This document shows positions 169 to 40,552 of a stretch of 64,000 bases of DNA, in pieces. The number at the start of each line of letters is the position of its first letter. The first letter of the stretch is position 1. The DNA is from Zygnema cylindricum (lineage: Eukaryota; Streptophyta; Zygnematophyceae; Zygnematales; Zygnemataceae), in contig JBBHKE010001485.1 in the NCBI GenBank assembly GCA_037447655.1, positions 62,001-126,000 of the forward strand, written 5' to 3'. The notes under the pieces were generated by a model that was not told the origin of the DNA, made no database searches, and was given only the letters and a program-made list of their open reading frames with translations. Both the position numbers and the translations under genes were made by a program.

Positions 169-1710
169 GTGGGCGGTCAGGTAGACCTCCACGGAATGCC
201 CGAAAAAAGCGCCACTCCGTCTTGGTGCCAGCTGGCAGCAACCGCTCTGGCACAAGATTTGAACATAGTGGTGGACAATGAGCTTGCCATCGATTGGCCG
301 GTGGGAGGCCAAGTGGACGTGGCAACCACCGCCTACAACTACAATCAAACCGAATCCTTCAAAATCACTTCCGGTAACATTTCAAACCGTGAAAGCATAA
401 CATCAGATCATAACATCAAAATGACACATCGGAACACAACATCAAGCATAACCTCGAAAATTTTCTTAGAAGCATAACTCCACCACATCACTTGTAACAG
501 CAAAGCATACCTGATTTCAAACTATACATAATACAAATAAATACCATTAGAATATGACTATAGGTAGTTACATATACAAAATGCCAACTAGCAACATCTA
601 ATCACTATGCATAAAAAATATAGACATCTACAAAGGAGAAACCGTGAATAACATCAAAAAATACAGAACCTCAAACATACATAACATTAAAAACACCAAA
701 TAACTACTGTCCGCTGGGAAACTTGAAACATTGTATGAAGAAGTCATTTACCTCTTTTTCTTTTTCTGGTCAATTTGGCGAAAATTCCCTTAAAATTTTT
801 AAGGGTTTCTAACTTGTGCTCGTCCTGGGTCGGTGGGAATATTGGTTTTTCAGTCACCGTTTCTTCGGATGGACATGTGGTTATTGGACTCGATAGTCCT
901 TTGGTCTATTCACACAATGGAGTTCAAGTGAGTGATGGAATGGGAGGATGGATTGATCAACGCGGCGAGGTGGCGCTTATTTCCAGAAATATCGTCATTA
1001 CGGGAACAGACGAGGAGGAGCCATACAAACTTGAAGGTTAGTGAAGTTCAACATTTTGAAGTTTTGATGTTTGAAAGTTTTGACGTTTTCCTTCAAGCCT
1101 CTAATGTTTTCTTTCACACAAGCCGATATTTTTGTTAAATTTTGTCAGAAACTTCTAAGAAAGAAAGCCAAGTAAGTGATCGCACCGACACAAATAACTA
1201 CTACCTTGTGAAATTTTACCTACAGCGGGACCTACAAAAGAGATTTCCCACCTAAAAAAAACGAATGAGAACGCCTTACTGTTTCTTTTGCTGTTCTCGT
1301 AACCTGTGGGCCGAAAGAACGAGAAAACAAGATGTGCCTGGAGTCCCCGAAGTGAATTGTGGAAACAATTGTGTACATTGACATCTGACAAATGATTCTG
1401 TTGGTTTATTACCAAAATGAGTAACATGTGTCATGGTCGGTTGTTTAAACAAGTGGAATCACCAATTTTACGAATCTTCACTTTTTTAATGTTACATTTG
1501 TTTTATGTTTTATATTTATAGGTGGACATTTCTTCATTTTTAGGACACCCGACCCGCCACAGTTTATTGAAGGAGTGGAGTTTTACAAAATGGGTCAACA
1601 AGGAAGATTGGGACGTTACAGTATGCATTTCCATGTGATTGGGAATAGTCCCCAAACCATCGCCGTCAAAAATTCCATCAATCAAAGCAAACAGGTGGGT
1701 AATCGATCTG

Positions 1711-1747
<37 letters not shown>

Positions 1748-4700
1748 CCCCTCCCTCCCTCTCATTCTCTCTTTTTCTCTCCCTCCCTCCCTCTCATTCT
1801 CTCTTTTTCTCTCCCTCCCTCCCACTCATTCTCTCTTTTTCTCTCCCTCTTGATTTATTTTTTCACAAACTACATACATAGAAATAATTCCCTGACAATG
1901 GAGAGATTATCTGAATTTAACTGATTTTTCCGCATAATTCGGTATCAAAGTGTTGTCTTTGCTCCCCCCCCCTCCCTGCTACTCTCTTCCTCTCTCTTTC
2001 CGATTCCCTCTATCTCCCGCCCTCTCTCTCTCACATTTCCTCTCTATTTTTCTGTCCCTCTCGTTCTCAGAGATGCCTCGTGGTACATGCCACTCACAAC
2101 ATCACTATAAAAGAGAATGTGGCTTTCAACACCAGCGGCCATTGCTTCTCTCTGGAGGAGGGAGGAGAGCAAAACAATACTTTCGATTCCAATATTGCAA
2201 TTACCGGAAACAGAGGTGAATAGAAAAGCCAACATTTGCTATATACTCAAAACCGAAGTGTTATCTTCCCTTCCTAATATAAGAATAAATAAGTATAATT
2301 TCATTTATGACTTCAGTAAATTGTTTGTTTATGACTTTATGAAGTTGTGTAACCTCAGTTTTATTAAAACGAATTTAAATTTTGTTTGATCGACTTGTCA
2401 AACCTGCCCAGAAAACAAAATGAGTGGAAACGAGAGACAGGCTTGTAACCGAAGATGATTGTTTATTTACAGTTCTTTTATCGTTTATCCTTTTTCTCTT
2501 CCTCTGCGGTTAGCTACAAAATTTATCAACGGAGAAACAGACGTAAACCCGGCATTGTATTGGATTTCGGCTCCGGGAAACATACTTATAAACAATAGAG
2601 CTGTCGGATCCCTGGATTCCGGGTAAGTTTTCCCAATCATATGCATAATCCAGCATTGCTAACCTTTTTTTACCAATTTTCAAAGACAATGACATTTCAA
2701 TAGACGATCAATTCTTCCCGATCGCATCGTAATCATATCATAACATGCTGGTCAACATCACAAATGTATTTTATGTTTATATCATCACATTTCCATTGAA
2801 CAAGTCTTGTTTGCGTGAGGTATTCCAAGAATCACTCCGTTTATGTATCCTTATCGCTTGCGCTTTTCTCTTTTGTGCCCGTCCTGTTTTCAGATTTTGG
2901 TGGGACACCAGGAAAACAGTCAGAGGAAATTCTAAAAACATAGCTTCATTGCGTAAAATCAATCCCGATGAAACTCCAGTTCTTTTGTTTAAAGGAAACG
3001 TCGCACATTCTTGCCATAATGTAGGAATGAAAACTTATCCTGACGGCTTTCGACCTGTCAAGTCGGTGAGTTCTTTTTTTCTAAATTGAGACCTTTTTGT
3101 TTTTGGTCCCTTTTTATGAACACAATGTTCAGCTGCTTCGTCCTCGTTTGATGGGAAAGAAAGAATGTGTTCCGGGTGGTTTTTGCAGACGGTAGTAAAC
3201 AAGTTGGAGGACAATCTTATTTATAAACAAGTATCCCGTGGGTGAGTTATGCGATTTACCTTCGGCCGGTTGTATGGTTCTCATAAAAGCTTTAAATCTT
3301 AAACTTCAAAACGGTTGCTTCTTCAAATTCTTTGTTGCAGTCTAGCAGATGTTGGTCCTTTCAAAGGAATTTGTTATTCGTGGCCAGTACTAACTGCTTA
3401 TGATTCTTTCCTTTCCAGGATGCTTATACATTTAACCCAATCCCTCACTATTAGCGGTACTTTTGCGGACTGCGGAGTCGGAATTCTAATTCTTGAAAGT
3501 CGAGCGATCCATGTGACAAATTCGAGATTTGTTGGTCTAACCACAAACTATGGAAATCCAACCTCATGTACCAAGAAAGATGCAAGAGGCTTCTATTCGA
3601 CATGTATGCCGCGAATCGGCTGCGAGTGAGTATTTTACTTGAAAAGTCTCAATTATATTTTTTAAGTCTTTATTCTCCATCTTTTACTCATTTCGCCTCC
3701 AACTCTATACTCGAACCTCTACACCATACTCCTGAATTTTCTACTGTCTTATCTTCAATCGACATTTTCCCAAGTTTCGTTGCTTAACTTATTTGCCGCG
3801 GAGTCCCAAGAAAGATAGAACATCGACAATTGAAAAGGAAAAAAAAAGACGGAATGAAATGGCGTACACAAGCCTAACGTAAAAGACAGCAACCTGGAGT
3901 AGCCCAATAAGAGGCGAATCAGGAAATAGACAATGCATTGTTTTAACATTCTCTGCTTTTATTCTTTGCAGCATGCCATTGGCCTCCAACGACCTCGGAA
4001 GAACACATTCCGGATATTTGACCGACCCTTACTATGGAGTTCAAATCAGTCAAGAGAGGAGAATCACCGGACACACGTTACCCAACAAAGTTTCTTACTC
4101 AAAGTATGTACGCTTTTGATTCCGTCATGTGTGATTTCAAGGGAAACTATGCCTATTTCACAAAACAACAGTGAAACAAAATTAAAAGAAAAATTGAAAC
4201 ATTCATCCCTGGGAAAGTTTAAACCAGTTTAAAAAGGCACAAAAAGGTGTTTTTTGTAAAAACGGACTGATTGTGGAACCTGTGATTTTATCAGGTTTTC
4301 GAACTACAATTCGTCGTGTACTAAACCCGGAAGGTCTGCCGCTATAATTCCTGTCCGGCCAGCAATTTTGGGATCTTCTTTCAATCCCCAATTCAGTTTG
4401 AGAGTGAGTTCCCTCTCCAATTTTTTCCCCTAAACGTGTCCCTCAAATTCTCTTTATGCTCTTTCCAAATTTTGCATTTTTCCACGAACCCCTTAGTACG
4501 AGGATCCAACATATGGCATTTTTATGAAACTGAAAAGGCAGCATTACTGCATTGTATTTTCATATACAATGCAATTAAATGGTCCTATAAGTCAATAACC
4601 AAGAATTGGGCAGTGAATTCTGTCAATATCAGGGGGCCATTTCTTTTGGTATTCTTTGTGAAACTGGACAGTGGCCTGATGCTTAAGCTAGAAAGTTTAT

Positions 4701-9443: not shown

Positions 9444-9716
9444 GATCTCTCTCTCCTTCTTCCCCCCCCCCCTTCTTCCCCCCCTCTCCCCTCTCTCTCC
9501 CTCTCTGACTCTCTCCCTCCCTCCGCCTCCCTTCTCTCTCTCCCCAACTATCCCACCTTCTCAACCCTCTTCTCACCATCTCCCCTCACTCTTCCACACT
9601 CTACCCTTGTCTCCCTCACCCTCTGTCCGACTCTCCCCTACTCCCCATCTCCTCTCCTTTGTCCCCCTTCCATTCAACGTCTCACTCCCTTGTCATCCCC
9701 TTCCCATCCCCCAGTC
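9444..9716. repeat. Pyrimidine-only low-complexity tract
   Basis: About 270 bp of almost uninterrupted C and T on the plus strand. Open frames of 90-130 codons here translate to Ser/Pro/Leu runs and are composition artefacts. Confidence 0.85.
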
Positions 9717-9840
9717 TTGTTAAGGTTCCGGAAAACTTGGAGTTTGGCATGTCCCACCCTTGGGAAAATTTTGCTGGCCAGGGTTTGAACTTGGGACCTG
9801 TAGTTGTGAATGCGATAACCACTGTTGCACCAGCCTGATG
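9717..9840 (-). mobile_element. tRNA-derived SINE-like fragment
   Basis: On the minus strand this reads like a degenerate tRNA: ends GGCTGG and CCAGC that can pair, an A-box-like GTGCAACAGTGGTTATCGC and a B-box-like AAGTTCAAACCCTGG. A tail follows, and the neighbouring C/T tract would be a purine-rich tail in this orientation. A shorter sequence resembling the tail lies near 10021-10060 (GGCACGTCCCACACTTAGG against GGCATGTCCCACCCTTGGG). It is too degenerate to be a working tRNA gene. Confidence 0.4.
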
Positions 9841-10302
9841 TCGGATCTCTCGGGTCCTTACTCCTTCACCTTAGAGTGTGTTTTGATTGAGGGCAGACCA
9901 CATCCTGACATTGAAAGTCAACCCTTGATCGATTCAACACCCCCTTCTCTAGAGGTAGCTGATCAATACATCCACAACCTCGATGACTCCGACGCCATGT
10001 CAGCATTCCGCATAAATCGAGATTTGGCACGTCCCACACTTAGGAATATTTCATTGGATCGCACAACAAAATCCGCTCAAAGAACTCAAAAGATCCACCA
10101 ATATAATCACACCACCAACGGAAGCAGAAACATATTCGTCATAATATAACATAGATTCTCAGGCGAAGTAGAAAAAAAAAATCGGCCAGTAGAAAGATGT
10201 TGAACAAACTTTTTTCCACACAGTATTCCCCATCTCTCTTCCTCTTTCTTACTAACTCTACAATAACACAGACTACAAAATAACTGCCTCTAAACAACAA
10301 AG
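9841..10302. other. Spacer without recognised gene
   Basis: A 130-codon frame covers 9760-10149, but its first part translates the SINE-like repeat and the rest has no recognisable motif or splice borders. I see no gene here. Confidence 0.45.
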
Positions 10303-10304
10303 GC

Positions 10305-10390
<86 letters not shown>
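10303..10390. repeat. (TC)n microsatellite ending at an assembly gap
   Basis: About 88 bp of nearly perfect CT dinucleotides, running directly into the N run. Long dinucleotide arrays commonly break assemblies, so the true array is probably longer. Confidence 0.95.
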
Positions 10391-10400
10391 NNNNNNNNNN
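10391..10400. other. Assembly gap (10 N)
   Basis: Ten Ns of probably arbitrary length. The order and orientation of the two sides may not be reliable, and the first base after the gap is also the first base of the left arm of the mirror repeat. Confidence 0.99.
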
Positions 10401-10547
10401 CCTTTACGATACCCTGCTCGCGCTGGACAGGACTAAAACTCTCAAGTTTTGAGTACTATCGTATACGCACCAAGTGTGAACTTTTTCCCCTTTTGCCATA
10501 CCATACTTTTGCCATGGAAAAAAACAGGCGGCACGTGACCGACCACT
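10401..10547. repeat. Left arm of a mirror repeat
   Basis: Read 5' to 3', these 147 bases equal bases 10838 down to 10692 of the same strand read backwards without complementing. I compared them base by base: 145 of 147 agree, with mismatches only at 10517 and 10542 and none in the first 116. This is not an inverted repeat, because the reverse complement of the right arm does not match. Confidence 0.95.
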
Positions 10548-10691
10548 CTATTTTGTACGGTACCTTAATTAACGTCAAGGAAAAATTAAAATCATGTATC
10601 CTATTTGAGGAAAAAAATCAAAATTTTAAGAACCTAAATTAGTGTCGTTGACACTAATAACGATGCGCGGTGTAGTTGACGTAGGCTAGCG
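10548..10691. other. Spacer of the mirror repeat with a foldback-MITE end
   Basis: These 144 bp show no mirror symmetry. Around 10639-10676 it contains a motif (ACACTAATAACGATGCGCGG, then TGTAG) resembling the right ends of the foldback MITEs seen in introns near 18170, 23761 and 28173. No left end is present. Confidence 0.45.
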
Positions 10692-10838
10692 TCACCTGCC
10701 AGTGCACGGCGGACAAAAAAAAGTACCGTTTTCATACCATACCGTTTTCCCCTTTTTCAAGTGTGAACCACGCATATGCTATCATGAGTTTTGAACTCTC
10801 AAAATCAGGACAGGTCGCGCTCGTCCCATAGCATTTCC
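10692..10838. repeat. Right arm of the mirror repeat; upstream region of the IBA57-like gene
   Basis: Mirror partner of 10401-10547. It lies only 14 bp upstream of the ATG at 10853, so it would be promoter or 5' UTR of the COG0354 gene. Because it continues directly into a real gene, it is more likely than the left arm to be genuine sequence. Confidence 0.9.
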
Positions 10839-10852
10839 GCCTCCACATAGCT

Positions 10853-13800
10853 ATGGCTGTGGTCGCTTCTCTATGCTCTCTCACTCTCGGGCAGAAAGAT
10901 ATCTTGTTGACGACCAACTCTCGAAATGTTGCTGGTCGGCATCGGAATGCCGCCTTCATTCAGTTTCTGAAGCAAACTTCTCACACTTTCTCAAGCGCAG
11001 AGAGATGCGGTTCCTGCAAAGCAATGTGGCAGCCAAAAGCATGGGGGAAAGAAAAAAAGCTAGGGAATGAGACTAGGCTTATGCAAAATCCAACATTGGT
11101 GAGGTTTCCCGTTGTTGTTCAAGCTTCTCGAGAACTGGAGCTGGTTCCCCCTCCCATCGACCTTGATTTCCAGGTATTTTTTGTCTATATATTGCTCATT
11201 TTACCATTTTTATAGTGAAACTATCGAGCGTGGTTTGTTAAGTTCTCGTATCTGGTCTTCGGTGACTATACCTTGTCCCTTCCACTTCATGATTTTCTGT
11301 GCAATCTATTGCAGGACGTGTTGAGGGAAGAAGGTGCCGAGCTATCTGATGATGGGGAGGCTTTAACTTACGGAAATGATGACGAGGCAATTGAAGCAGC
11401 TCTTACTAGTGTAGCTGTAAGATTAACTGTAGCTCTGTTCTTCTTCCTTAGCCTTTTTTTGTCGAGATATCACTATTCTGCAGCATTTGTTTTTGATGAT
11501 ATTGCATCGTTTTTTTTACTGATGATATCATTATTTTGCAGTATTTCTAAGTCACTAATTGCATGCTTGCCATTCGGTTCGAGTTTTCCTCTTCTATTGG
11601 AAGGATCAGAACACGTGGTTTATCTTCGATTGTCCTTTTCACTGTTTCAGTCTTCTGTGGAGCATAAGCTTTGATTTAAAACTCCTGTTTTGTCAATTGA
11701 CATACTCATCACTTTTTTCAGCTATTCAAAGTGTGTCTGAGGGAGTTTCTCAGTGTGATGCAGGTTTTTGACATGTCTCATTTTGGTCGAATCAGAGGTG
11801 AGACTTTGACCTTATTTGCAGAATTCAGGTTTGAGAAGTCATCCATTTCTCAAAGGTGCATCAAAGGCAGTTGTAAATTTTGGCAAGGAAAGTACAACCA
11901 CATTATGAAATAGTTAATAGTTGGTCGAATTTGCACAATCTTAGTTGGGTTTGAAAATAAAAAGTATTCAACATGCTTGCAGTGACTGGCAACGATCGCA
12001 TGCGTTTCCTTCACAATCAAAGCACCGCCAATTTTGAAGCACTCAAACCGGGCCAAGTAGGTTTTTTTCCCTCCTTTTGCAAACTAAACTTTCACAAGTA
12101 GTGTCTAAAATGTTCGAAAGTTTTTCAGTTAGTACAAAGGTGATGGTCAAGGTTCCTCATTGATTTTTATATCCCTTGTTCTTTTTCCTAGTTCACTTGA
12201 TCGTCATGATGTCGATCATCATGATCTGTTTTACTACATCTGGGTGTGAATGGGCTGAAGCTTTTATTAGTGTGTAGCTTGGGACCTCTATGGGTCGAAT
12301 TTAGCTATTTTCGTATGATCGAAGAGTGAGCAAATCCCGGTAACATGGGGAAGGATATGAAGGTTTTTGTTTTTTCTGAAACTGTTCTTTGTTTATTCAA
12401 TGTTTGTGGAGTCTCAGGGTTGTGACACAGTGTTTGTTTCCCCTACTGCAAGAACAATAGACCTAGCAACCGCCTTGGTGATGGTGAGAGCCTGAAAATC
12501 TTTTTCCTTCTCTTTGTTTCTCTTCACAATATTGAATAGCTCGTTATATGAGAACCATGAATTATCATCGTGTAAAACACCACCGTATTTGTGTATGCAG
12601 CTCCCTCTAGTTAGACTAAGGAGTACAGCTTAGCAGTCCTTAACAAAGGGCTTCAGAGAAATTGGGAATTTTTTGCACTCAATTACAGGCTGATTATCAT
12701 ATTCTGGAATATCATATTCTGTTGGCATTGACCAGAAAAGAACCCCAGTATCAACCATGAATTTGTGTACCCGAATGTAATCAATCAATGTTATCAAACC
12801 ATCTCTCATGTCACCAATGGTAATTACTCATACTTTTGTGCTACATGTAATATTGCATGTATTCTGTTTCACACAGTCAATCACACATAGAATGACATGA
12901 ACCTCACAACCTTTTTTCAACACCATAATCTGTGGCCAACTGAATTTTTTGAAATGTAGTTTAATAACTTATTGATTGCGTCAATATTCTCAACTTATAT
13001 ACTTGTTATAACCGGATATTTGATATATGTCATGTTCCACAAAATAAAGAGGTTTTAGTTTTCTTTTTCCATCCATTATAAGGTTCACATAAGTTGTGGT
13101 CGTAGGTTTTCATTTTCCATTTTTTGTAAGATTCACACAAAATGTAAGGCTTATATATACCACATTGTTAAGCGTCGTTTGCACCAGCCCTGGTTAGGTT
13201 CCCACTTGAACTAGATCTCTACTTCTAAAGACGTGACGTACACTTGTATCACATATGTTCTTTCTGGTGCAGATACCTTGTTTCATGTCATGCTGATGTG
13301 AAAATATCGCTCATTATGCCAGGATAACGTTTGATGTCAGAGTTGATTCTGTATTATTCTAATAGTGTACACATGTGTTGTAATACGTACCTTGTTGGTC
13401 AGTCTGACGTGTGTTTTTACGTTTATCTTTATGTTACCACATCTCGCCCAAAACAAGTATAGGTCACCCTCGCTCATGTTTGTTCGGTGATGTTCGTTGT
13501 AAAAAGGATTTTGTTTCAGTATTGGATTGATAATTTTAAGGTATTGATCAGTTACAGTGGGATAGTTAATTTGGACAAACAGTTCGTTACTCATTGTTTA
13601 AAGAAGACATCTTGGTAGGACACGAATGTTGATTAGTATCTCCGCAAGTTACAAGAATCTGAAGAGAAATTCATGTTGGGGACATGAATTGAAGATTGAG
13701 TATTTAAGGTCGTCCATTTAAGAGGTATTGACATGCTATGATTGCATGTCCTCAAGCAAAGTTAGGTCTGGATATCTGTTTGAGATTCTTATAATTGTTG

Positions 13801-16800
13801 TAAGTTAAAAAGATAGTGAGGAATTCTTTTTTTATGTTTTTCCAGTATTTGTTATGTCAGCAATGTTTCTCCTCCACGTGAGAATCACTCTGGTTAGCTG
13901 GTTTAACTTGTCCAAAAGGATAGTCCAATACTGAGCTAAATATTTTACTTTAGTATTCGTACCGATGTCCTACAGAATCTCCATCCTCGAGAGCACAAGA
14001 AAGGGGAACACATGTACAAAATACGATTGTTTCCTGTAATACACAGTAGTTTTGATTTTTCACAAGTGTTCACACATGCTAACGCGGTCAGTTTGAAAAA
14101 AAATGCCCTTAATGCATCCAATTCTCAAAATAAAATTTTCCTTTGTAATCCTACATGCATCCTAAGTAGCATTCCAGTTTGGATCCAATTTTACATGAGA
14201 AAGATTTTCAAAGTTCATCGTTGGAAACCGTTTTGCATGCCTTTCTGGTAGTGGTTTACATCTTGTCAAAGTTTAAAGTATATCGTGGTAAAATACAGTT
14301 TTCGCATTGTATGGAGCAGAGCAACATTGCAATATCATGATAATATAACCCGAAACAAGGATAGAGGGGGGGGGAGGGGAGGGGTGCCGAGTTCGGAAGA
14401 AAAAAAGAAGTAAACTATCTTGCATTTAGGGTGCAAATGAAATTCCCCTATCTGATATTAAGCATGTCATGTGATGTCTTGTAAGTGAAATAAATGTGTC
14501 ATTGTTAAAAACTGCCACACTGTCGATATAGCCAATAGTTGTTCCTTATTTTCACACATAATTTTGAAAGACCTTACTTGATAATCCGCAAGTTCAATTC
14601 CTAAGTGGATACCATTATGTCTTGCTGCGCTTTAAAATGGCCAATTAGCATGTGAAGCTCGCGACATACCGATGTCCAAGGTTTAGTGAGTGAAAATTTA
14701 TGAATCTTCTTGTGCCTTTAAACGCAATCAGTTTTGTTGTGTGCCCACAGTCTCAGCTTCTCAATATGTAATCAGCCTGTTTGATATTTGTGTCGAGATT
14801 TCTCCAGTTAATGCATAATTCTGCGGATGCTGGAGAAGTCTGTTTGTACGTGTTAATGGGGTCACCAGAAAATTTGAGGCTTAAGGCGACCAACAAGGTC
14901 GCAACTTCTAAAAGTTATTGCATTTGCTCTTGTTTGTCTGCGTTTCCATGGATCTCCATCCTGTCAGACCTCAAATCACGCAGCAAACTTGTTTCTATGT
15001 GTTCCCCATTGCAAAGCAATGTTGCAAGATTTGGTTTCACAAACAGTTTGTTTCTGTCTCAGCTCGGTCCACAAAGAGGTTATTAGGGTCGGTGAGGGGT
15101 GGATTTAAGAAAACATTTTTCTATTAGAATCCAGTTTCACTCTAACGCTGTTAACATAAAAATGTATGAAATTTTTGTCGACAACCTTACAGCAAACGCT
15201 GGATTTCAGGTGGATGCAGTAACATATTGAAGATATAATCAATAAACATTATTGTTGAAGGTGCCCTGGTCGCGAATCTCTTCTTAAGAATGTATGATAG
15301 CAATATCAGACCTCACCAAACTTCGATGGATCATTTTGTCTGCTGGCTCGCAGGAAACTGCCGTTATACTGACAGTCTCACCATCAAAAAGGCGTGAGCT
15401 CCCTGCTATGCTCGATCGGTAAGTTAATTGGACTGCACATCAACTAATAGCAGTTTGGCATATTCCCGCTTACATTTTTTGGTCATGTTCTGGTCATGTT
15501 TTGGTCATGTTTTGTTCATGTTATCCAAATAAATGACCATAACCTGATCAAAACAATTTAAGTGAGAATGTGCCTAGATTCTCAGATCCTTATTTTAAAG
15601 TATAATGCAAGTTGCACTTCCAAGTTTAGTTTGCTGATCTATTTTCACTCTCGGGACCTTTTCTGCTGTATCTCATACAACTTGTGAACATTTTTCATCT
15701 GCTTGAAATTGAGGCGCCGGTGTTTCTGGGTGTGTTTTCCTAACTGCAGTTATATATTCTTTGCGGATAAAGTGGAGGTTTCGGATATTTCTGAGAGGAC
15801 TTCCCAACTGGCGTTGATAGGACCAGGTGCAGATGAGGTGAGCAGGTCCTTAAGTCATTTTGACAAATCGATTGTTTTCAATTTGTCTCCACCTCAATAA
15901 ACTTCACCCTGACTGTATCACTGAGGCCTCTGGTTTATGACATCTGATATATGTTGTATGGGGGCAGTGCAGATAATGGAAAGCCTTAATGTGGGAGTTA
16001 CGGGGAAGCCTTACGGTTCTCATGCACATTTCAGTGTATTCTCTTCCCCCGTTTAACTGTACAAGGTGCTTTGCCATGTTTGCGTCTACCAAATTAACTT
16101 GTCTCAAGACTGGATGTCAAATCTCTGTAGCATGGCCTTTCAAAACCCTCTAGAAATGAGAGTCGTATCCTGTCATGAGAATCCAAACCATGTACTTTTT
16201 CAGAAGTACTTCTTCCCTTGGAGACAAGCTGACAACGGTTACTTGTAGTCACTGTCTCAAGCATGAAAAGAGTAAAACCTCGGAGATTCCCAACTAGCTT
16301 TTGCACTTTTAGGCGTAAATCCCGTAAATTGCACGCACACTCTCAATCTGCCATGGCATAAAACTGCCGAGGGAGCTGATTTTTTTGCAGTTTTAGGCAC
16401 AAAACCCATAAATAATTAAACCCCAAAAATATATAAATTCCATAAATCACACGCATATTCTGATTTTGCTTTAGCATAAAGCTGTTGAGGTTTCCAGGCG
16501 TTTTTTTTTGCAGTTTTAGGCGTAAATCCTATGAATAACATGCACTTAAATAAATAACATGACTCTGCTACGGCTGCTTTCTTGGAGGGCAGATCCAGGG
16601 CTCTCCAGTGACAGTGGCAGTGGGCAGTGGTGTGGCTGAGAAGGGCTACCAGCTCCTATTGGCCCCTGAGGTCGCAGCAGTCGTCTGGACTCTTCTCGTG
16701 GAAAAGGGAGCAGTCCCCATGGGCAGTCAGGCATGGGAGTCTCTGCGCATCCTGCAAGGTGTGGTGGTCTCCGGTTTCTGGTGAGGGAATAGGACATAGA

Positions 16801-18983
16801 GCGTGTAGTCTGTGAGATGTTCTCTGTTACATTTTTCTGATCATGTTTTGGTCATCTTTTTGGTCATCTATTGGTCATATTATCCAATATTTGATCAAAT
16901 ATTAGGTCAGACCAGAAGATGACCGAATATCGAGTAACAAGATATGCTTAGTGGTTGTTAGTCTTCAAGGGTCGAGCTGGTTAGCCATTAGTCGATGTGT
17001 TTTTTTATTCAACTCGGGTAGGCGAGGTTTCTGGTGGAGTCAACTTGCAAAGTAATCACAAGTTTGGATTACATGGATTATGACGAGTGTTTACGTATAG
17101 CCGCAAGTTTGAATATTCTTTTCCCTGGAATCAAACTGTGAGAAAGAATGCACTGCCACAGTCCTATTCGTGTCGGGAGTAGCTGCACGTTTTGAACCTT
17201 TTTCTGATGACAAAAGTTGGAATTATCTTGTTTCTTTTTTTGACACAAAGGCTTGTTTCTGGTTTTGTAGAATATCCTGGTAGTTTGAATTCTTGTAAAG
17301 TGAGCTTTACTGCACCTTTTTGAATGCCAGAATAAGATGGAAAACCAACGTCATAAATTTAACTGGTTTTAAACATTTGAAAAAGGATGCCATTTTTTTC
17401 TGTGTAGGAAGACCTGCTCCAGGCAAAGAGCTAACAGATAAAATTAACCCACTTGAGGCTGGATTATGGAAAACCATTTCCACAAACAAAGGTCAGTAGT
17501 AACAAACTGGTTAGAACTTGCCAATCAGGTGAATTCATTCATATCCATACCTTTATCCTTCAGAACAAACGAAAGAATGTTTTCTGCATAGTTGGCTTAT
17601 TTGTTGTAATTTCTACCCTTTTGCGTGCATTCAAAAGGACCATAAAGTTGACCAGAAGCTTTCAATGGTTCCATAAGTCGCCATTTATTCATGATCTTTC
17701 AGCTATCTCCTGAAATGTAGGTATCATAAATTTTCTTTTTCTGAAGTCTCTAGGTTAACCTTGTCCCAAGAAGAAAAAAAAATAATGTACAAGGAAAAAT
17801 GAGTCAATGACGTTCCACTTCGATATCTTTACAGGAAACTGTGATGTTGATAATACTTGAATTGAAAATTGGTGGGTTTTTTTCCAAGAAAAGTAGCCAA
17901 TTAACTACATTTGGATGCACTATTTCTCTCAAGTAGGAAATAAGCCTCCAACAGTATACCATGAATCGCTACTAGCCTTAAGAAACAATTAGTATGAGGA
18001 CTGTTTTAGTGTTAATAATTCTGTTTCCGGTCTGAATGACGTGGACGATTGTGAACCCCAAAAAATCTAGTTAAGAAAGAACAGTTAGTATTAATAACGC
18101 TATGTTGTGTTGGCATAAAAACCGGGACAGAATTAGTGTCATTCATGCTAACAGCGATTCCCGGTGTAGCTTTGCAAAATCCCAAGCTTCTTAGCAAAAT
18201 TTCTTACAATGGTGAAAACGTTTGCTTGAAGGGTGTTATATTGGGCAAGAAACAATCGCTCGACTTATCACATATGATGGAGTTAAGCAACATCTTTGGG
18301 GAATGCGCCTAACCGGTCCCGCATCTGTTGGCGACGCAGTAACGGTTGAAGGAAATAAGGTTTGTTTTTTTTAAAAAAAATTGCCTTCGCTTCCTCAATG
18401 TCTCTCTCCTCGAGAATTTACCAGCGTATCCTTGGAGGAAAACCATCGTTTGGTCTTTTATTAGTGGTACTGGTTGGTAATTTGTGGGTGCATACCAGAA
18501 GGTTGATGGAAAGGCCAGGTTGACAAGACACCTTCTGATTAATTTGTTCTTGTTTTTTTTTCGGCCTCTTTTTTTGTTTTTTTCTTACTCCTTTCTGCAT
18601 ACCTTCACAAATTTTACATGAAAGTGCAGCTCCTGTGTGCCTGCTTCCATTCCTTCTCCTTTACCAACGGGTTGACTAGTTTTTGGTCCTTTGCAATTTT
18701 AATGCTGTCCTCATCTCTGAGGTTTCCTTTCTAGGAACCTACATTTGCAAGTTATTTTACGGTTTATCATCATTTTGTTTCTTCATTAACCATATTGACA
18801 TCAAAGGGGAGTGTTACTTTGCAGGTTGGGTTTTTGACAAGCTACACAGTAATAAAGGGCGATCACGTAGGCTTGGGATATATTAAGAAGCAAATAAATG
18901 AGCCTGGAGTCATCGTGGATATCGGGGAAGTACAGGGAGAGCTTGTGACATCGCCTTATCTTACATGGACTTTACCACAGTAA
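10853..18983 (+). CDS. Plastid COG0354/IBA57-like folate-binding protein (GcvT/YgfZ fold)
   Basis: Twelve exons: 10853-11173, 11315-11416, 11764-11797, 11983-12056, 12418-12483, 15354-15418, 15750-15837, 15973-16035, 16593-16758, 17408-17491, 18232-18359, 18825-18983 (TAA). They total 1350 nt, 449 residues, with all phases agreeing. The first ~90 residues are basic and Ser/Thr-rich, like a plastid transit peptide. Then come [65 protein letters not shown] and the COG0354 signature KGCYIGQE (residues ~350-357, across the exon 10/11 join), ending in LGYIKKQ. This matches the plastid plant member of the family (IBA57.2 type) rather than the glycine cleavage T-protein itself. Family members help maintain or mature Fe-S proteins in a folate-dependent way. 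Intron 5 is ~2.9 kb. Its promoter would lie in the mirror-repeat region. Confidence 0.9.
12484..15353 (+). other. Long intron 5 of the IBA57-like gene
   Basis: About 2.9 kb of A/T-rich intron with no supported gene. A G-rich run lies near 14366-14384. Short frames inside (for example 14012-14251 and 14781-15086) show no recognisable protein and no exon structure. Confidence 0.6.
15479..15520 (+). repeat. Short TGGTCATGTT tandem repeat
   Basis: Four imperfect copies of a ~12-bp unit (TGGTCATGTTCT) in intron 6 of the IBA57-like gene. Similar units recur at ~16838-16880 in intron 9. Confidence 0.6.
16298..16545 (+). repeat. Imperfect tandem repeat in intron 8
   Basis: Three blocks each start with TTGCA(C/G)TTTTAGGC and continue with AAA(T/A)CCC(G/A)TAAA-like sequence, at about 16298, 16387 and 16509. 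The first two also share GCATAAA(A/G)CTG(C/T)(C/T)GAGG. Each block end offers a CAG preceded by T-runs, so it also supplies decoy splice acceptors before the real one at 16592. Confidence 0.55.
17955..18170. mobile_element. Foldback MITE in intron 10
   Basis: The left end (ACCATGAATCGCTACTAGCC) and the right end (CTAACAGCGATTCCCGGTG) are imperfect inverted copies. The ends resemble those of elements at 23591-23761 and 27951-28173. No coding capacity. Confidence 0.5.
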
Positions 18984-23300: not shown

Positions 23301-25305
23301 CCTGCATCTCATTTCACAATAGATTAAGCGATTCAATCATGGGGAGGGAAACAATGATTCATCGGATTTAAAAATGTACTTTCATCCATACTCGTCCCTT
23401 ATCCTCCTCTTTATAGCTTCATTTCTTTGTTAGTACTTTTTGGGCCGCAGTACAATTGCTCTTCATTGAAGGCTTCTATATATGACTGAAAGATAAATGA
23501 AAGAAAAATCCAACAACAATAGAATGCCAGAAGCTGATTACTTGCAGATAGACCATTGTCAGCAAACATTGTGAAATGAAACAAAATTGTGGTACACCAC
23601 TCATCGCTATTAGAGTAGTGATTTTTTGATCCCGAAAAAATCATACATTAGTTAACAATATTAATTTAAGTGGCAATAAGCCACGTTGGAAAACAAAATT
23701 TAGCGTAGCTAATTTTAATGTTGATGATTCATTAACTCTAACAATGATGGGTGGTGTAGTTCTTCCAAATGCAACAAGCAAAGGACAGCATCAGAGATAC
23801 CATTTAGCAATTTCCTTAAATCCAAATCTTGAATGTTTTTCTAGATTAAAAAAGCTTCATTGTTCAAATCGACCTGCTTGCTCACCTATTGGCATAGTAG
23901 AGGGAAAGACCTCGTTGCCACAAATCTGCAAAAATGTATAAACAGTTATTCAATTGACAAGAAAGAGTCCTTTGTATCATCAAATTTTGAAAGGACGAAC
24001 AAGAGATATCTGTTCCATTTCATTCAATGAGACATAGACTCATGCAACACACACAGGTTCACACAGAGGATCTTCAGGGATATGCCCATCCTTTCTGTTT
24101 CAAAAAAAAAAAAAAGTTGAACCATATCAACTCAATAAGCACCACTTTCGTGGAACCTTGCACAGATGGAATCTATCTGTGACATCTGTTGTCGCCTTCT
24201 GAGAGAAAAAATAAATGTCTTGAAAAGTTTCTCCTCATGAGCAAAGCTTTCCATCACGACGTGGACATCTCTCAGCCAACAACGTATGGCTTTATGAGCA
24301 ATTATACACTTTGTTAAAATACTTATCAAAAGAGAGAAAAATGTGAAACGCTAGACAGAACAAACAACGCAAACATTGAATGATTCTCTTGGGGATCTCT
24401 CCTGATAGTGATTCTGGACATGAATTTAAGGTGAAATTGTGCAAAACGGATAAGTTGTCAGATATTGTTCATGGTGGGAGGGTGATCATTCTGACCAATA
24501 AATTACCTTGTATAATAGCACAAAGGCAACCAGTACACAATTTCTACAAAAAATAGAAAATGTGGTACCTTTTTCCTCCTTCCCTGACATCATTTCAATT
24601 CCTCCTACCTCATTCATCTGAGCTCTTCTCTTCCCCGACTACCTACACGCGACTCACTGCTCTTTTTTTCTTTGACTTCTCTGCTACATCTCTTCACAGA
24701 AATAGAAGCCAAAAAAAGCCAAAAAAAGGCTAAAAGAAGCCACAACAAATAAATCACGCACACACAAACACAAACACATGCCCTGCAAACTCACATGGCC
24801 GCTGCGAAGCATCAAGCTCCAAGGCTCGGTCAAACTCCTGCAGAGAGCCTGCCACGTCACCCTGCAGATCCCCGCAGCAACCCTCGTCCTCATCAGAAAT
24901 CGGAAACGAGTTTTATTCTTCCAGTCTTTCCAGGAGACGCTCGCTACAGTCCAATCGCACCTTCTTCTTAAGCCGTCCGCTCACCTGTGTAAAGAGCTGC
25001 ATTCCTCGACGCGTGGCCTGCAGAGCCGCCTGTCTGTTTCCCGCGGCCATGGCGCCCATTGCTACCACTCCTACCACAGCAGCCGTTGCAGCCAGACCGA
25101 TCATTGCTCCGGACGCCATGGCTTCTCGCCTCCCTACCTGCGCTCCACCTCGTCCTGCTGCACGTGGCACCAGCTTGCGTGCAAGAACAGTGAGAGAAGC
25201 GGGTGGGCAGAGGGGCCGCAAGACCATGGACATGGCTGTCGGAGAGTGCAGCATTGCGTCAGGGAGACGAGAGAGAGGAGACCAGGTGACAGCGATGGCA
25301 GCCAT
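20368..25305 (-). CDS. Plastid TPR-like protein with a transmembrane anchor
   Basis: Nine minus-strand exons: 25305-24985, 24861-24795, 23925-23886, 23052-22989, 22851-22783, 22536-22465, 21935-21810, 21526-21465, 20440-20368 (TAA). They total 894 nt, 297 residues, all phases agreeing. Residues 1-~65 look like a plastid transit peptide. A hydrophobic, Ala/Val/Gly-rich segment at ~70-92 (MIGLAATAAVVGVVAMGAMA) is a likely membrane span. TPR-like helices follow: GDVAGSLQEFDRALELDA, YLWQRGLSLYYANRFEEGAE, EEAIWCFLCEAQL, VGKDPRPVMGAAYELF, then DGFYGKLYLGLFYEAEGD and SGDYMAKLAAVHCKCRGW. The pattern matches a plant TPR-like plastid family whose role I cannot name. The first in-frame ATG after an upstream TGA is used; Met18 would also give a transit peptide. 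The exon 7 acceptor (TATAG before 21935) is the weakest border. Confidence 0.85.
23591..23761. mobile_element. Foldback MITE in intron 3 of the TPR gene
   Basis: The left end GGTACACCACTCATCGCTAT is the imperfect inverse of the right end near 23733-23761 (CTAACAATGATGGGTGGTGT). No open frame. Same family as 17955-18170 and 27951-28173. Confidence 0.55.
25295..25305. promoter_or_regulatory. Overlapping divergent start codons
   Basis: The 11-bp near-palindrome ATGGCAGCCAT contains the predicted ATG of the thioredoxin-like gene (+, 25295-25297) and that of the TPR gene (-, 25305-25303). Both proteins would begin MAAIA. If both starts are used, each gene's 5' UTR and promoter must lie in the other's transit-peptide exon. 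Downstream in-frame ATGs (TPR Met18; thioredoxin-like Met30) would relax this. Confidence 0.5.
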
Positions 25306-28300
25306 AGCTGCACTGCGGATTCACCCTTCACAATTGCCGTCAGGAAGAGCACCCACCCTTCGCGGGCGTCGGTCCACGTGGATGCGGGGGCCAACGGCTG
25401 TTCTTCGCGAATCACAGCCTCTCTCTCTAGGCACACGCGCTCCTGACTTCCAGGTGCGCCACGTGTTGTCTGAACAATCAGAGGGGCGCCGTTGGCAGAG
25501 ATGCGAGAATGTTCTATGGCGTCATGTGAACATACATGGTTTTTTGACGCAGTTTTCCATGCAAGCTCTGGGAGCCATGTCCATTATGGCCACCTTATTT
25601 ACAGCATGCCGAGGAGCCATGGCGGGCTTCATTGCAGTTGGTGGAACCACTGACTGGCAAATTGTGGAGCTTGGACGACTTCGAAGGCCACTGTGCTCTT
25701 CTTGTCAGTTGGCCACTGCACTCCCTTTGCTAGATAGGCCATTCTTTGCTCCTGTCATATTGTTTTTGAAAGTTGGGAATTGAATGTTCTTGTTTGAACT
25801 TCATTTCTGTCCTTAATGTGGATGTTTGGCCATATTTGACGCTTAATATGACCATCTTTAATTGTTATAGTTGAAATTTATTAACATCATTCTCTAGGCA
25901 CTCCAACGAGACTAATTAAACCCTGACTTTCAGTCACTACAAACTTGAGAGTATCTTACTAGTTCCAAAATGTTAGACACTAAGTCAGACTTCAAAATAG
26001 AGTTTAATTGCATTATGTCTCCTTGTGATTCCCGGTCTGGAGCTCCATAGCAGGAGTAGGGCTAAAGCTGGCTGTTCCCTGGGACTACCTGAGCACAGAA
26101 GCAAAATCAGGAGAAAGAAAAATTTCCATTTTTTTTCTACTGTGCCACACTTTGCGTTGAAGGAAAGTTCTGACATTTGTTTTCTTGAACAAGAACATAA
26201 TGAATTTATTCCAGATGTCACCGGACAGAATCTTGATTTCCTGGAAGTGTATATATGTAATCTACATGTATACACTGGAGGAAAAAGTATTCATGTGCGT
26301 ATTACTATTATTATTATCGTCATTAATGTTCAACTTGGTCCATTGTTTTTTTTTTTTTATGAATTGAAGCTTACTTCAAAGCCCCTAGATGATATGCTGA
26401 ATCGTTTTTTTCCTTTAGGATTCATCTTTGCAAGGAGACCTGTTCATTGTCATCAAATTTAATGATGATTTATTTTAATGACAAACTCATTACATTAATT
26501 TTGTCCATTCTAATGATGGATAAAAATTATTTTGAGTTAACTTTTTTCCACCATTTTGTCTGAAATTCATGATTGGATTATTGGATCCTTCTCCAATTGA
26601 AGCTTGCTTTCTCATGTTCACTCTTATCTGTGTAAGAATGGGTGAGCAGGTGGTTTTTATGTGTAATCACTGCCCCTTCGTGGTCCATATCAAGAAGGAG
26701 CTTTTGGCTGTCACCAGCCAATATATTGATGTATGCACATCATCTCCCTGATTTGCTTTTCTCGAGGGTGTTTAACCAGCATCATTTGAGGAACTATACG
26801 TAGTGTAATTTTACTTAAGCAAACTTAAATGTACTTTTCTTATAGTCTTCCCTGCTAGCTACTCTTGCTCTTTTAAGCCCCGCTCTTCCTATACGGGAGG
26901 ATGATGATTGTTAATGTATGCTATTGAGTACAAGGAATTGTATGTGTAAAACTGCCTTTTGTTGTTGGGATCTCATGTTTTTGAACACAGAAAGGGCTTG
27001 GTGTTGTTGGGATATCTTCCAACTCCATAGAAACTCATCCGAAGGTGAGAAAATTCTGTTCCGGAAGTTAACGGTTCAAGAGACATATGGTGTGATAAAG
27101 GATGTTTCAGTTTTGACGCGGTAGAGTCCGATCGGCCTGTGGAGAGACATATAGCATTTTTTCAAGAAGGATTCTACAAGTTGATGGCAGTCTAATTTGT
27201 AATCATGTTTGTTTGTCGGTGTTCTTTCTGAGTCTTTCATTGTTGCTTTGACAAAAGAATCTGCCACAAGATTGTTCTTTACAAACAATTATTATGTATC
27301 AAAAAAGTTGTTTTCTTCAGCCTCTGAGGTATGTGACATGTGACATGTTGGCAGGATGGGCCTGGGCCTATGGCTGAGGAGGCTCAAAAGTTTGGGTACA
27401 AGTTTCCTTATCTTTATGATGAGGTATGCTTTCTACTGATTTGGTGATTGTATTTAAATTGAAGGATGAAAAATGTGTGAAAAATGCAGGAAAGCTTATG
27501 AAAGATTTCCTTTTTGTTTTGCCGTTTTTTACAAAGCTTTCACCTAGCATGGGTTCCTTTTGGACTATGCGTATTCTAGTAATTATTTCACATTATTCAA
27601 TTCAGTTATGTATCATACTGTTTACGACAGAAAAGGACAAAGCATTTACGGTAGAAAAAGACAAAGTATTTACGGCAGAAAAAGACAAAGCATTTATGGC
27701 TTTTGCCGGCTCTTATTAGTGTTATATGCATTGGAGGCTTGCATGCAGACACAGGAGGTGGCCAAAGCGTATAATGCCGCATGTACACCCGACTTTTACG
27801 TTTTCAATAAGGTTTGTATAATACTTATCTAACACCATTTTTTTCAAATCTTTGAATGACAACACCTTTCATTTCTATTAGAATCAATAACTTGTTTTCA
27901 GTCGCGGGTTTTTTCTGAGCCAAAATCATAAAATAGTTGAATGGTTGGAAAGGTACACTTCTCGTCGTTATTAGTGTTAAAGTTTTTTTCGCCACTTAAA
28001 ACATCTTTTCTCCGTGCACACTTGTCGGATTGTAAACCGGAGACCGCCAATAGGAAGGTGAGGATCTTGCCTTCCAATACCAACCATCGGATCGGCAACC
28101 CGACAAGTGTGCACCAAGAAATATGTTTTATGTGGCGAAAAAAGTTTTAACACTAATGATGATGAGCGGAATTGTTCCCTGTTTACTGATGCTTACATAA
28201 TTGCAGGTTGGGCGAAGGCCATTTGAGCTTGTATACCACGGCCAAATGGATGATTCGCGGCCCGGAAACGGCCGCCCTGTCACTGCCAGGTACCCGAGAA

Positions 28301-32355: not shown

Positions 32356-34020
32356 CTACGCCCAAGCTGAAAGAGGTTGAAAAGCAATGCTGATCTGGAG
32401 GTGGCCAGAATCGTCAAACAAGTATCCCACAAGTGGATGAATGTAGCGTTGGGTGGCAAGGTCCCATGTGAGTTCATTTAGCTTCGGTCCAAAGCTACTC
32501 ATGTTGGTCTCCTTTGCAAAAGGTCCCCACAGTTTGCTACCCACAGTAAGTTCTCCAATATTAGGGTTAGGATTGAGATTCAGCTTGGAGTCTGCTTTTG
32601 TAGGACTGTTGGACGGGGAAGGAGGCTCTCCAAAGCAGACCAATTGAGACGCGCCCTTGGACACTCGCGATCGCGACGGAGTACCAACTGTACAACTGGC
32701 CTCCACTGCCCTTTTCCCCTTAATGGACATGAATGGATGGCCTGGAGGCCCACAGTCACGTTCTGCTAGACGGATTTGGATTGTGTTATCGAAAAGTGTA
32801 CCGAGTCCTGTCTTACGCAATTCAATGCAGTACCAATTGCCACACACAAAAACTCGCTCAGAGGACTCACGCATTTCCATGCCATTCAGTTCCGTGATGT
32901 CCTTCTCGTGAATTTGCCACATAAGCAGTGCTGGACCCGCCCGCTTCCCTGGGCGAGGAATGTAGGGAGGAGCCGAGCCGTAAAGGAGAGCCACTCCACG
33001 GGGATCCATGGTTTTGATGCGAATGGCCACCTCCACCCTACTGAAGTCCATATAATCTGCCGCATCTGGGAACCTCCTCACTGCCAAAAGGCACTCGGCG
33101 CTCATCTGAGGCAGTCGCAGTAGAGACCACAACCGCCTTAATGCCTCAGCCCTGTAGCCAGTCTGGTCGTTACAATTAGCAACCATTCCCACAGGTTCTC
33201 CAGAGCTATCATCACCATCATTTTGTCCACCTTCCAGTTTAGAGTTCCCCGCGAGAAGACTTGAGACGTTTTTCTGCAGACCCGAAGCTGAACCAACTCC
33301 TCCTCCTCCACCACTACCACCTATCTTGCCCATAGTGCCACTTCGAGGCGGCAAATTTCGTTTGGCCCACTCGAGAATGAAAAAAAACACTGTGTCTTCC
33401 GACTGCACCTTCACTCTGGGAGATGCCAACAGACACTCCATGGCTTGTAAGGGCAACTGCCAGAGCTCTCCCTGCCCAGCGGCTATCTGCGAGTCGAGAC
33501 AGGGCACGGTCTTCTCCACACATCGCCGTGCCTGCACCAGAAGGTTCCTTGCAACTTCACTCTCCTGAATGTGCTGCGGTAGAATCAGCACCTCCACCGC
33601 CAGGGCCAGTGTCATGGTGGCCCTCTGGAGAGCCCTTGCGCAGCTCGCCATGACAGCTGGCGCGCGGTACTCGTCTGCAAGCATGAGCACGCGCAGTAGC
33701 GTGTTCGGGTCTTCACACGTGTGAGGCGGCAGCTGGCCGCCGGCGTATATAGCCCGCAGAAGCAGCAACATGCCGGAACGATCGTCCACGGTGATGCCGC
33801 GTGCGTCCGTGCAGCCGGCAACCTGCCATGTTTCCACAAAACCGCCAGAAAAATACCGTCGGAAGTATTCACTCTCCTTTCCAAGAATAGCAGTGTTTAC
33901 ATAGAGTGTCTCTTCGGCGGGAACACCGCCACGTGTGAAGCGCAGAGTGAGTACACGGTTGGAATGGTCGCGGCAGTCGAATGCAAAGGAAAAATCAGTA
34001 TGCCGCTCGCACTCCGCCAT
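32356..34020 (-). CDS. BTB/POZ-BACK domain protein
   Basis: Intronless frame of 554 codons from ATG at 34020 to TAG at 32356. The N-terminal ~120 residues fit a BTB fold: TLYVNTAILGKESEYFRRYF, ITVDDRSGMLLLLRAIYAGG, LLRVLMLADEYRAPAVMASC. A BACK-like helical region follows (LPLQAMECLLASPRVKVQSE, DTVFFFILEWAKRN), interrupted by a low-complexity Gly/Ser insert (GGSGGGGG, residues ~233-245), then ALRRLWSLLRLPQMSAECLL. The C-terminal ~200 residues form a separate domain as in plant BTB/BACK proteins of the POB1/LRB type. Such proteins usually act as CUL3 E3 ligase adaptors; that role is inferred. GC content is clearly higher than the flanks. The start is the first ATG of the frame and fits the beginning of the BTB fold. 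Confidence 0.85.
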   Translation of the reverse strand: MAECERHTDFSFAFDCRDHSNRVLTLRFTRGGVPAEETLYVNTAILGKESEYFRRYFSGGFVETWQVAGCTDARGITVDDRSGMLLLLRAIYAGGQLPPHTCEDPNTLLRVLMLADEYRAPAVMASCARALQRATMTLALAVEVLILPQHIQESEVARNLLVQARRCVEKTVPCLDSQIAAGQGELWQLPLQAMECLLASPRVKVQSEDTVFFFILEWAKRNLPPRSGTMGKIGGSGGGGGVGSASGLQKNVSSLLAGNSKLEGGQNDGDDSSGEPVGMVANCNDQTGYRAEALRRLWSLLRLPQMSAECLLAVRRFPDAADYMDFSRVEVAIRIKTMDPRGVALLYGSAPPYIPRPGKRAGPALLMWQIHEKDITELNGMEMRESSERVFVCGNWYCIELRKTGLGTLFDNTIQIRLAERDCGPPGHPFMSIKGKRAVEASCTVGTPSRSRVSKGASQLVCFGEPPSPSNSPTKADSKLNLNPNPNIGELTVGSKLWGPFAKETNMSSFGPKLNELTWDLATQRYIHPLVGYLFDDSGHLQISIAFQPLSAWA

Positions 34021-34657
34021 GGCTATGGACTAGTTCAGCTGCTCCTAATGGGACAAATAAGGAATAGGAACAAGGGAGCTCGTTCCTGCATACGATATTG
34101 TATCAGTCTATCTTGTCTACTAAAGAGAACATAAAACTGCCTTTGGGAGTCGGCACGGCAGTACAGTAGGTTGCGAGGTCCATTCAGCTAACGCCCTCCT
34201 TTGTCCATGTGCTGACGTTCATAACTTCATGCTTAAAGGCAGTACAGTAGCATGTTTGTCAAAGTGCGGACATTCCGTACAAACATCGGCCGGAAATGAA
34301 ATTCCGTGTACGGTACAGCACCAGAATTTTCGTCCAATTTCCTTTAAAATCAATTTGATTTTCCCCGGCAATAATTTTCCTGCGACCAACTTCCTGCCGG
34401 CCATATGGCGCACGGCAATCAAAGGACTACACGTGGCGTGAGCCGTGTTTAAAGGATATACAGGAAATTGAACATTTAAACGCAAAAGGTTTATACCAGT
34501 ATGAGAAACGTCCGTACTTATGAGTACAGTACTATAACGTATACTACAGGACAGTACAGTACAGTACACCGTGAATCGTTATTGGCGTAATGGACGCTAT
34601 TTAAGGTACCCTTTTTTTTCCCAAATTCTTAAACAGCATAAATTATTCTGTTTTTTC
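34021..34657. other. Upstream region of the BTB gene with CAGTACAGTA motifs
   Basis: No coding signal. CAGTACAGTA occurs near 34161, 34241 and 34551-34566. A block CAGTACACCGTGAATCGT (34562) recurs as CAGTACACCGCGAATCGT at ~36300, suggesting an older repeat that now surrounds the MITE insertions. Confidence 0.45.
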
Positions 34658-35784: not shown

Positions 35785-37717
35785 GTTTTTTCTATTACGC
35801 CATTTAGGGTATTTTTTTCATTTTTTATCATCTAAATAGAGCGTTGTACGGTTAGTGTCAGACTGTACAAAAATGTACCTTTTTAAGTGAGAAAGTATAA
35901 TTAATGGGTTTTAGTAACCACAGACGCATGAGAATATGCGCTCTAAAAAGGGGATGAAATCGGGTTGTCAAAAATCACGTTCTCACATATTCCTCCGACA
36001 ACCGCATTTCGACCGTGTGAACGTACGATTTGTGTACAGTTTGTCAGATTTTTAACAGAACATATATTAGTGTAAACAAGTTTGGGGCGGTTGTTTATTT
36101 TTTTTTTAATCCAAATTAGTATAAGTAAATATCCAGTATATATGTTTTTTTTGAAAAAGTCCAAATTCTCAATCAGCGTAAATAACAGTAATTATTCCTA
36201 CGCGCACACTTGTATGTAGTGTACAGTAAGTACTTGAGTCGCATCAAAAATTCCAATACGTAGCCTTTTGAATTCGAGTAGAAATTAGAAGCCACTTTCA
36301 GTACACCGCGAATCGTAATTAGAGTAAATTACTCTAATTCGGTCGCTCGAAATTTCGGCTCTATGATATTGAATAGAGTAAACAATTCTAATTTAATCAT
36401 TATTCTATTTTAGGTGTAGTTTAATTAGCGTAAAAAATTGTAATATAGGTTCGCTTTAAATAGTGTGGAGTATGGACGACGTTCGAACGTGCAGAATTGT
36501 ATTTTTTGAAGTAAAAAGGTACAAATAATGATATATTAGAATCGTGCTCGCACGTGAAATCGCACTAAAAAAAACCGGCCAAATTCCAAAAAAAAAAATC
36601 CGTTCGCATATCTTCGTCTGTCAACAGCATGGTCGTCTGTGTGAACATTGATATAAGTTTACATGTGAAAATGTAATTGTTCAACGGCGACAACACGTAT
36701 CTGCCCTAATTCTAATGTTTACTTTATAACTGTTGTTTGGCATTCCGCGTATTCAGTTTAGATAGGGGAACTTGACTCCGCGTATGCAATTTAGAAGTGA
36801 AAATGTACTCTAATTTAGGAGTACGTTTGTTTTAGCGTAAAGATTTATCCTCAAATGACCAAACTTACCAAAATTACCCTTAAAAATAGTAACTTTTAAC
36901 TGTAATAGGGGTGAATGATCACATTGGGACACGAATTAAAGTAATAAACTAAAAAAAAATAGAGTAAATATACAACATTAGGTGTGGGTGATATGTGGCA
37001 TAGGGTAACGCCAAATGCGCACAGACCCCACAAAATAGATTCTTTCCTACACCAATCACAACCACTCTTTGTTTTTTGGTTCAATGATAAGATAACACTG
37101 CCGCCATCCTAAAAATCTGTCCACTTTTTCAACAGGAATGTGGCAAATTCTCTCCTCCTCTTCCACCACCATGGATTTCACCTTGTCCACGTCATCACTT
37201 TCACGCCATTTGCGAACCATTTATGAAGGAGGAGACAAAATTGCTTTATTGTTCGATTCAGATGTGAATTTAAATCCGGAAATTTAATCAGGATTATAAT
37301 CAAAAGCAAATCGAGGATCGATATCGAAAACGGAATTAAAAGCAGAATTGGGATTAAAACTAGATTCAAAACTGGAATCAATTTCGGAATCTAAAATAGA
37401 AGAAACAGGAACAGAATTGAAATTCGAATCAAAATCAAAAAACCCAGAAACACTTTTAGAAAATTCGGAAGCCGAATTGAAAATTGGGTTTTATTCAGAA
37501 AATGATTCGAAAACAGGTTCGAATACAGATTCAGATTTATAATTAGATGACAGCTCAGCAGTACAGGAAAATGGAGAAGAAGAATGGAGTATGGAAAAGG
37601 ATTTAAGTTTTGTTATGAGAGAGGCAATCCGGTTTGGAGAATCATAAAAAAGAGATTCGGCAATAATGAGATTCTTCGACATCTTTGGAGTTGAAGGAGA
37701 GGGAGAAGAGGGAAGAC
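35785..37717. other. A/T-rich spacer with old repeats
   Basis: No gene supported. It contains AGCGTAAA-type motifs (around 36175, 36428) similar to sequence near 34635, plus a low-complexity stretch at 37255-37550 made of degenerate GAATCAAAA/GAATTGAAA units, which yields a Ser/Glu/Lys-rich frame that I do not regard as a gene. Confidence 0.45.
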
Positions 37718-39589: not shown

Positions 39590-40530
39590 CTGCCTCTCCT
39601 TCTCTTTCAACTTCTCCACACTCTATCTTTCTCCCTTTCTTCCTCAAATCCTTTATAATCGGCCCCCATTCTATCTCCTCACTCTCCCCCTCTCACTTTC
39701 CATCCCGCTTTTAACCAGGCTCACCTCTCTCTCTCCCTCTCCACCCCCCCTCTCCCTCTCATTTTTTTCTTTCCTCTCAATTCGTCTCTCTTTCCCTCGT
39801 CCTATCTCTCTTTAAATCCATCTTATTTCTAACACTCTCGCTCCCGGACGCTTTCCTTAATATTCTGTTATAACCCTAAAAACCTTGTTCTTAAATCTCG
39901 TTCTTAGTACTTATCCCTTTCAATTTTTTCTCCATCTTTTACTACCTCTTTCTCCTTTTCCTTTTGAATTTGTCTCCCCCCTCTATCGTCACTATCTCTC
40001 CCACTTCTCGTCCCACTGTCAATTACCCCCTCTTCTCCAGTTTCCGTCGCTTCTATCTATCCATTCTTCCCCTCTCCCTTCCCCCCTTCACTCTCTCACT
40101 CCGAGCCGCTCTTCCTCTCTCTCTCTCTCTAATTGCTCCTCCCTCTTCTATTCTTCTCTCCACAATTCTTTGCCCCTCTCACGCTCACGCCAACTCTCTC
40201 TTCCTCCTTTTTCCCCTTCCTCTCAATCTGTCTCTCTTTCTCGCATCCTCTCGCTGTTTTCCTCCATCTTCTCTCCATCACTCTTGCTAACAGTCCCTCT
40301 CTCTCCCAATCTGTTGTATTTTTTCCCCTATCCCTGTCCTTCTATCTCCCATTTATTCCCCCTCCCTTTCAATCTGTCGCCCCATCTCTTTATACCACTC
40401 TTTCTTTCTTCCATTTTGAATCAGCGCCCCCCCAATTATTGCCTCATCAAATATCCCTCATCCTCTCCCTACCCTGTTATCCCTCCCCCTTCCAATTATA
40501 CTCCCTCTTCTTCTGTCAACCCTTTTCACC
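39590..40530. repeat. ~940-bp pyrimidine-rich low-complexity tract
   Basis: Mostly C and T on the plus strand, with long Ser/Pro/Leu/Phe frames in two registers. It is fused in frame to the copia polyprotein, so the N-terminal ~220 residues of that open frame are composition artefact, not gag. Confidence 0.85.
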
Positions 40531-40531
40531 C

Positions 40532-40552
40532 TTTAACCGAGCTTCGGTTAAA
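40532..40552. repeat. Perfect 9-bp hairpin at the tract/copia junction
   Basis: TTTAACCGA, loop GCT, TCGGTTAAA. It sits exactly where the pyrimidine tract gives way to copia-like coding sequence. Confidence 0.8.

Follow-up and report, generated by a model that had tools for sequence, protein, structure and literature searches.

A 147-bp mirror repeat, i.e. a sequence repeated in reversed but uncomplemented form on the same strand, lies directly beside an assembly gap in the 64-kb window (the whole stretch of Zygnema cylindricum DNA that was analyzed). Whichever extent is assigned to the reversed block, the repeat is almost certainly a software artefact of the assembly, and the chance that it is a real biological feature is minute. 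This verdict rests on the position of the repeat, on its anatomy and on the known polarity of DNA synthesis. As to how it arose, we consider it very probable that a gap-filling step wrote a single read in the wrong direction, the left arm being the reversed unit.

Anatomy and position of the mirror repeat

Direct comparison of the left arm (10401-10547, + strand) with the right arm (10692-10838, + strand), read backwards on the same strand from 10838 to 10692, gave agreement at 145 of 147 positions. The unbroken blocks measure 116, 24 and 5 bases and are separated by mismatches at arm position 117 (G at 10517, A at 10722) and arm position 142 (A at 10542, T at 10697). The 144-base spacer between the arms (10548-10691) is devoid of mirror symmetry, as only 19 of its 72 compared positions agree, which is about the level expected by chance. 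The base counts of the left arm (C42 T39 A39 G27) reveal a mixed composition. These results bear out the sequence-only reading, which had described a mirror repeat of 147 bp with an initial 116 bases free of mismatches, composed of something other than a polypurine tract and ending before a 144-bp spacer. H-DNA forms at homopurine-homopyrimidine mirror repeats (PMC13404959). The present sequence shares with these the mirror symmetry within one strand, but its left arm is neither homopurine nor homopyrimidine, and the arms stand 144 bases apart.

The first base of the left arm, 10401, directly follows a run of ten N (10391-10400), the sole N run of the window, just as had been claimed. The gap is abutted on its other side by a (CT)n microsatellite of 43.5 copies (10304-10390, 87 bases, + strand). 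Such tracts commonly break short-read assemblies, and this one is the probable cause of the break. Two features expected of an artefact at a gap are therefore present, namely anomalous sequence bordering the N run and an adjoining tract that accounts for the break.

A mirror scan of the window, in which 14-base seeds were required to pass an entropy filter, revealed a longest other match of 15 bases after the 116- and 24-base blocks of this repeat. In the same filtered scan the longest match to a complement without reversal, which served as a control, was also 15 bases. In ten order-2 Markov surrogates, each 64 kb long and scanned with a slightly laxer complexity filter, the longest mirror match ranged from 15 to 18 bases. 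Chance, already dismissed as a source of such length in the sequence-only reading, is excluded as the origin of the 147-base match. When the window was scanned unfiltered, 1884 mirror seed pairs of 18 bases were recorded; 40 of these comprise 10 self-overlapping mirror words (at five places), 10 pairs belonging to this repeat and 20 belonging to the tract 1713-1732.

In a search for direct and inverted repeats within 9500-12000, the longest direct repeat was the CT tract, at 43 nt, and the only inverted pair measured 12 nt. In blastn comparisons with the window at E up to 1, each arm matches only itself, while the left arm, when reversed, matches the right arm. Gapped alignment to the rest of the window gave scores of 30 and 26 for the left arm in the two orientations (shuffle maximum 33), and of 26 and 27 for the right arm (shuffle maximum 39). 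Since these values do not exceed shuffle levels in either orientation, they are uninformative on which arm is genuine. A DNA search of the plasmid collection yielded no match, and Rfam none at the gathering score.

Orientation of the spacer and the arms

Evidence on the genuine arm comes from the spacer, which contains similarity to a dispersed repeat. Compared with the window by blastn, the spacer as printed gave several matches, the best of them at E 4.6e-5, whereas the best match of the reversed spacer was at E 0.084. A profile constructed from six other copies of the repeat, with the spacer left out, finds 10637-10675 (+ strand) at E 5e-8, against a best match of E 0.82 in the reversed window; the six copies were picked for their resemblance to the spacer, so these E-values are optimistic. 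Independent support for the repeat end is provided by a member that had not been chosen for the profile (23593-23621, found by it at E 3.2e-4) and by the inverted ends of two copies. The motif stands in the normal orientation as printed.

The repeat resembles MITEs, which are recognized by terminal inverted repeats in short dispersed copies. Such ends were found in two copies, 23593-23758 and 27961-28166 (24 nt at 83% and 48 nt at 85%). With the profile's threshold for inclusion, the family occupies six places in the window; the remaining four are ends (10637-10675, 18127-18169, 34565-34604 and 36302-36343), and the termini of 23593-23758 have the form TACACC...GGTGTA. TA is present at both ends of this last element, a length too short to prove a target site duplication.

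In the spacer a single end was found. Judging from the similarity and the profile match, 10637-10675 is probably one end of a MITE-like element in normal orientation. Given the lengths of the other two elements, its partner end would be expected about 40-90 bases to the left of 10548. The profile found no partner in 10401-10636, although a much diverged one could escape it, and the single inverted pair found in 10401-10700 (10472-10488 with 10609-10625) excludes the repeat motif. It thus seems that the left arm breaks into an element, the remainder of which is absent. Because the repeat end is normally oriented and the left arm occupies the place where the remainder belongs, the right side would be the genuine one and the left arm the reversed copy, on the assumption that the spacer and the right arm are contiguous. 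On the right of the gap, the genuine contig would then probably begin with the spacer; the right arm would probably be genuine sequence 5′ of the downstream gene, and the left arm probably a mishandled read. The MITE-like end is a component of the spacer; the mirror symmetry is left unexplained by it.

Direction was also scored with Markov models of orders 1-4, on the premise that a reversed stretch reveals itself through its word bias. The comparison sets consisted of 433 segments of 144 bases (444 minus four overlapping the region and seven with N or of low complexity) and 216 segments of 291 bases (219 minus three overlapping the region). For the arms the score is weak and mixed: at orders 1, 2, 3 and 4 the left arm has -1.03, -0.75, 0.14 and -2.89, and the right arm +1.02, +0.79, 0.00 and +1.55, respectively. 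The spacer scores as reversed-like, with none of the 433 other segments lower at orders 3 and 4, and five and four lower at orders 1 and 2, respectively; in this respect the score disagrees with the spacer being genuine as printed. Most of the signal originates from 10632-10691, where the motif and the following 16 bases both contribute. Among the six other copies of the repeat end, scored at order 1 on the + strand, three are clearly negative, one is near zero and two are positive, and the scores of such short pieces shift by up to 2.3 units (orders 1 to 3) with the strand taken. The behaviour of the other copies and this strand dependence explain part of the spacer's signal, but not all of it. 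We set the spacer score aside because other copies behave alike, the scores depend on the strand, and similarity in normal orientation is more direct evidence. It nevertheless remains a result against the artefact being a single read.

The direction score is an argument for a longer reversed block, in which all of 10401-10691 (291 bases) would be one reversed piece. The true upstream sequence would in that case consist of the spacer in reverse and then the right arm, and a leftward extension into the gap would have been written in the wrong direction. Such a block accounts for the exact end of the symmetry at 10691/10692 with no need for a read end, and its direction score is below those of all 216 other segments at orders 3 and 4 (three of the 216 are lower at orders 1 and 2). 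We nevertheless regard it as unlikely, as 10637-10675 matches the other repeat copies as printed and hardly at all when reversed, and as the alignment score of 10632-10691 is 41 as printed and 30 reversed, compared with a maximum of 34 and a mean of 24.8 in 60 shuffles. As a variant, the reversed block may end inside the spacer; the score of 10548-10631 is 35 as printed and 27 reversed, with a shuffle maximum of 36.

Origin of the reversed copy

Returning to a single read with the left arm as the reversed unit, we propose that the assembly broke at the (CT)n tract, upstream of the gene, and that the gap was then filled in part with a stretch of 147 bases, roughly the length of one read, drawn from 10692-10838 with its strand mishandled. 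Reversing a sequence without complementing it amounts to complementing a minus-strand read without reversing it, so that a minus-strand read starting at 10838, complemented but left unreversed, would yield the left arm. This piece would have been joined to the contig on the right of the gap, at its left end, with ten N left over. The unit is thus presumably one read, a gap filler is the likely agent, and the omitted reversal is the strand step that may have failed. Gap-filling programs collect reads and lengthen the edges of contigs on either strand, and because both strands are handled a strand error would be easy to make in the code. Errors of gap filling and strand handling are, as a kind, similar to the present case, in which an N gap next to a microsatellite is bordered by false sequence that has roughly the length of one read and is copied from nearby. 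However, the known false gap fills are direct or reverse-complement copies, while the plain reversal seen here would need a coding error. No published account of a gap filler making an error of this type appears in the titles and abstract openings of the matches listed.

The distribution of the mismatches is consistent with a read of this polarity. Both fall within the last 31 of the 147 arm bases, at what would be positions 117 and 142 of a minus-strand read, i.e. late in the read, where quality drops. The first (10517) repeats the preceding base at the start of a homopolymer. For two random mismatches the probability that both lie in the last 31 positions is about 0.04, the limit of 31 having been chosen after they were seen. 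In a plus-strand read the errors would instead occupy positions 6 and 31, a less typical placement. The length of 147 is not a standard read length, and its derivation from 150 by trimming is an assumption. The sequence-only reading had leaned towards an error in gap filling or read handling, and it is supported in this by where the gap lies, by the adjoining (CT)n tract and by how the repeat end is oriented. It had also objected to a copy error on the grounds that the arms differ at two sites and that the symmetry stops before the spacer; both would be expected of a copied unit that is one sequencing read, which would carry its own errors and end where the read ends.

Were the repeat a true duplication of 147 bp in the nuclear genome, reversed but not complemented, it would have to have been produced by parallel-strand DNA copying. 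The match is far above chance, and the two mismatches could be explained by later divergence. However, the repeat sits exactly on the assembly gap, is the sole case of such size in the complexity-filtered scan of the 64 kb, seems to interrupt a repeat element, and is a copy that no known enzyme makes. Known polymerases copy antiparallel, and we know of no recombination or repair route that joins strands in parallel. We therefore give a genuine duplication next to no credence. An error at the level of the wet laboratory or the read, such as a chimeric read, rather than of the software, is just as improbable. Chimeric reads do occur, but nothing here indicates one; chimeras are direct or reverse-complement joins, and neither a polymerase nor a ligase can produce a strand that is reversed and uncomplemented.

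Neighbouring genes and significance

Between the right arm and the start codon (ATG, 10853) of a gene with several exons lie 14 bases (10839-10852), in agreement with the distance previously given. The first exon extends over 10853-11173 (+ strand, the edge being judged by eye), and additional matching pieces extend as far as 18980. It belongs to the green-plant relatives of "putative transferase At1g60990, chloroplastic", a name used in several sources; the sequence-only reading had termed it IBA57-like. Protein searches, for this gene as for the 554-residue frame described below, scored only the 8000 candidates sharing most words, and among these 2478 proteins were related to the gene at E 0.001 or better. 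The closest relative among the scored candidates is P0001 (87% over 78% of the query); further relatives among the matches listed are a transcriptome protein at 66% and lycophyte and moss proteins at 60%. The alignment of P0001, which is in pieces, spans 11081 to 18980 and so does not bear on the continuity of 10838-11081. Relatives of the gene carry the GCV_T domain (PF01571), and in the window a single exon-sized frame matches GCV_T, with E 0.021, below the curated cut-off.

Other open frames were distinguished within the window. The frame at 32362-34023 (- strand), of 554 residues, exceeds the cut-off of the BACK domain and falls just short of that of BTB; of the 8000 candidates scored, four are relatives at E 0.001 or better, the best at 86%. 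Two long open frames are located at 39861-43781 (+ strand), and in the second of these (41841-43781) there are matches to RVT_2 and to a retroviral SH3-like domain, as in Copia-type retrotransposons. An open frame at 1449-1850 (+ strand) matches the CEMIP beta-helix (E 3.6e-11) and continues into a serine-leucine stretch.

A plain reversal at a gap edge escapes programs that find direct or reverse-complement repeats, and such a search missed it here. The reversed fill puts false sequence in front of a gene, and the case is of modest importance for the quality control of assemblies. If real, the mirror repeat would overthrow the rule that DNA copying is always antiparallel; as an artefact, it has no importance as biology.
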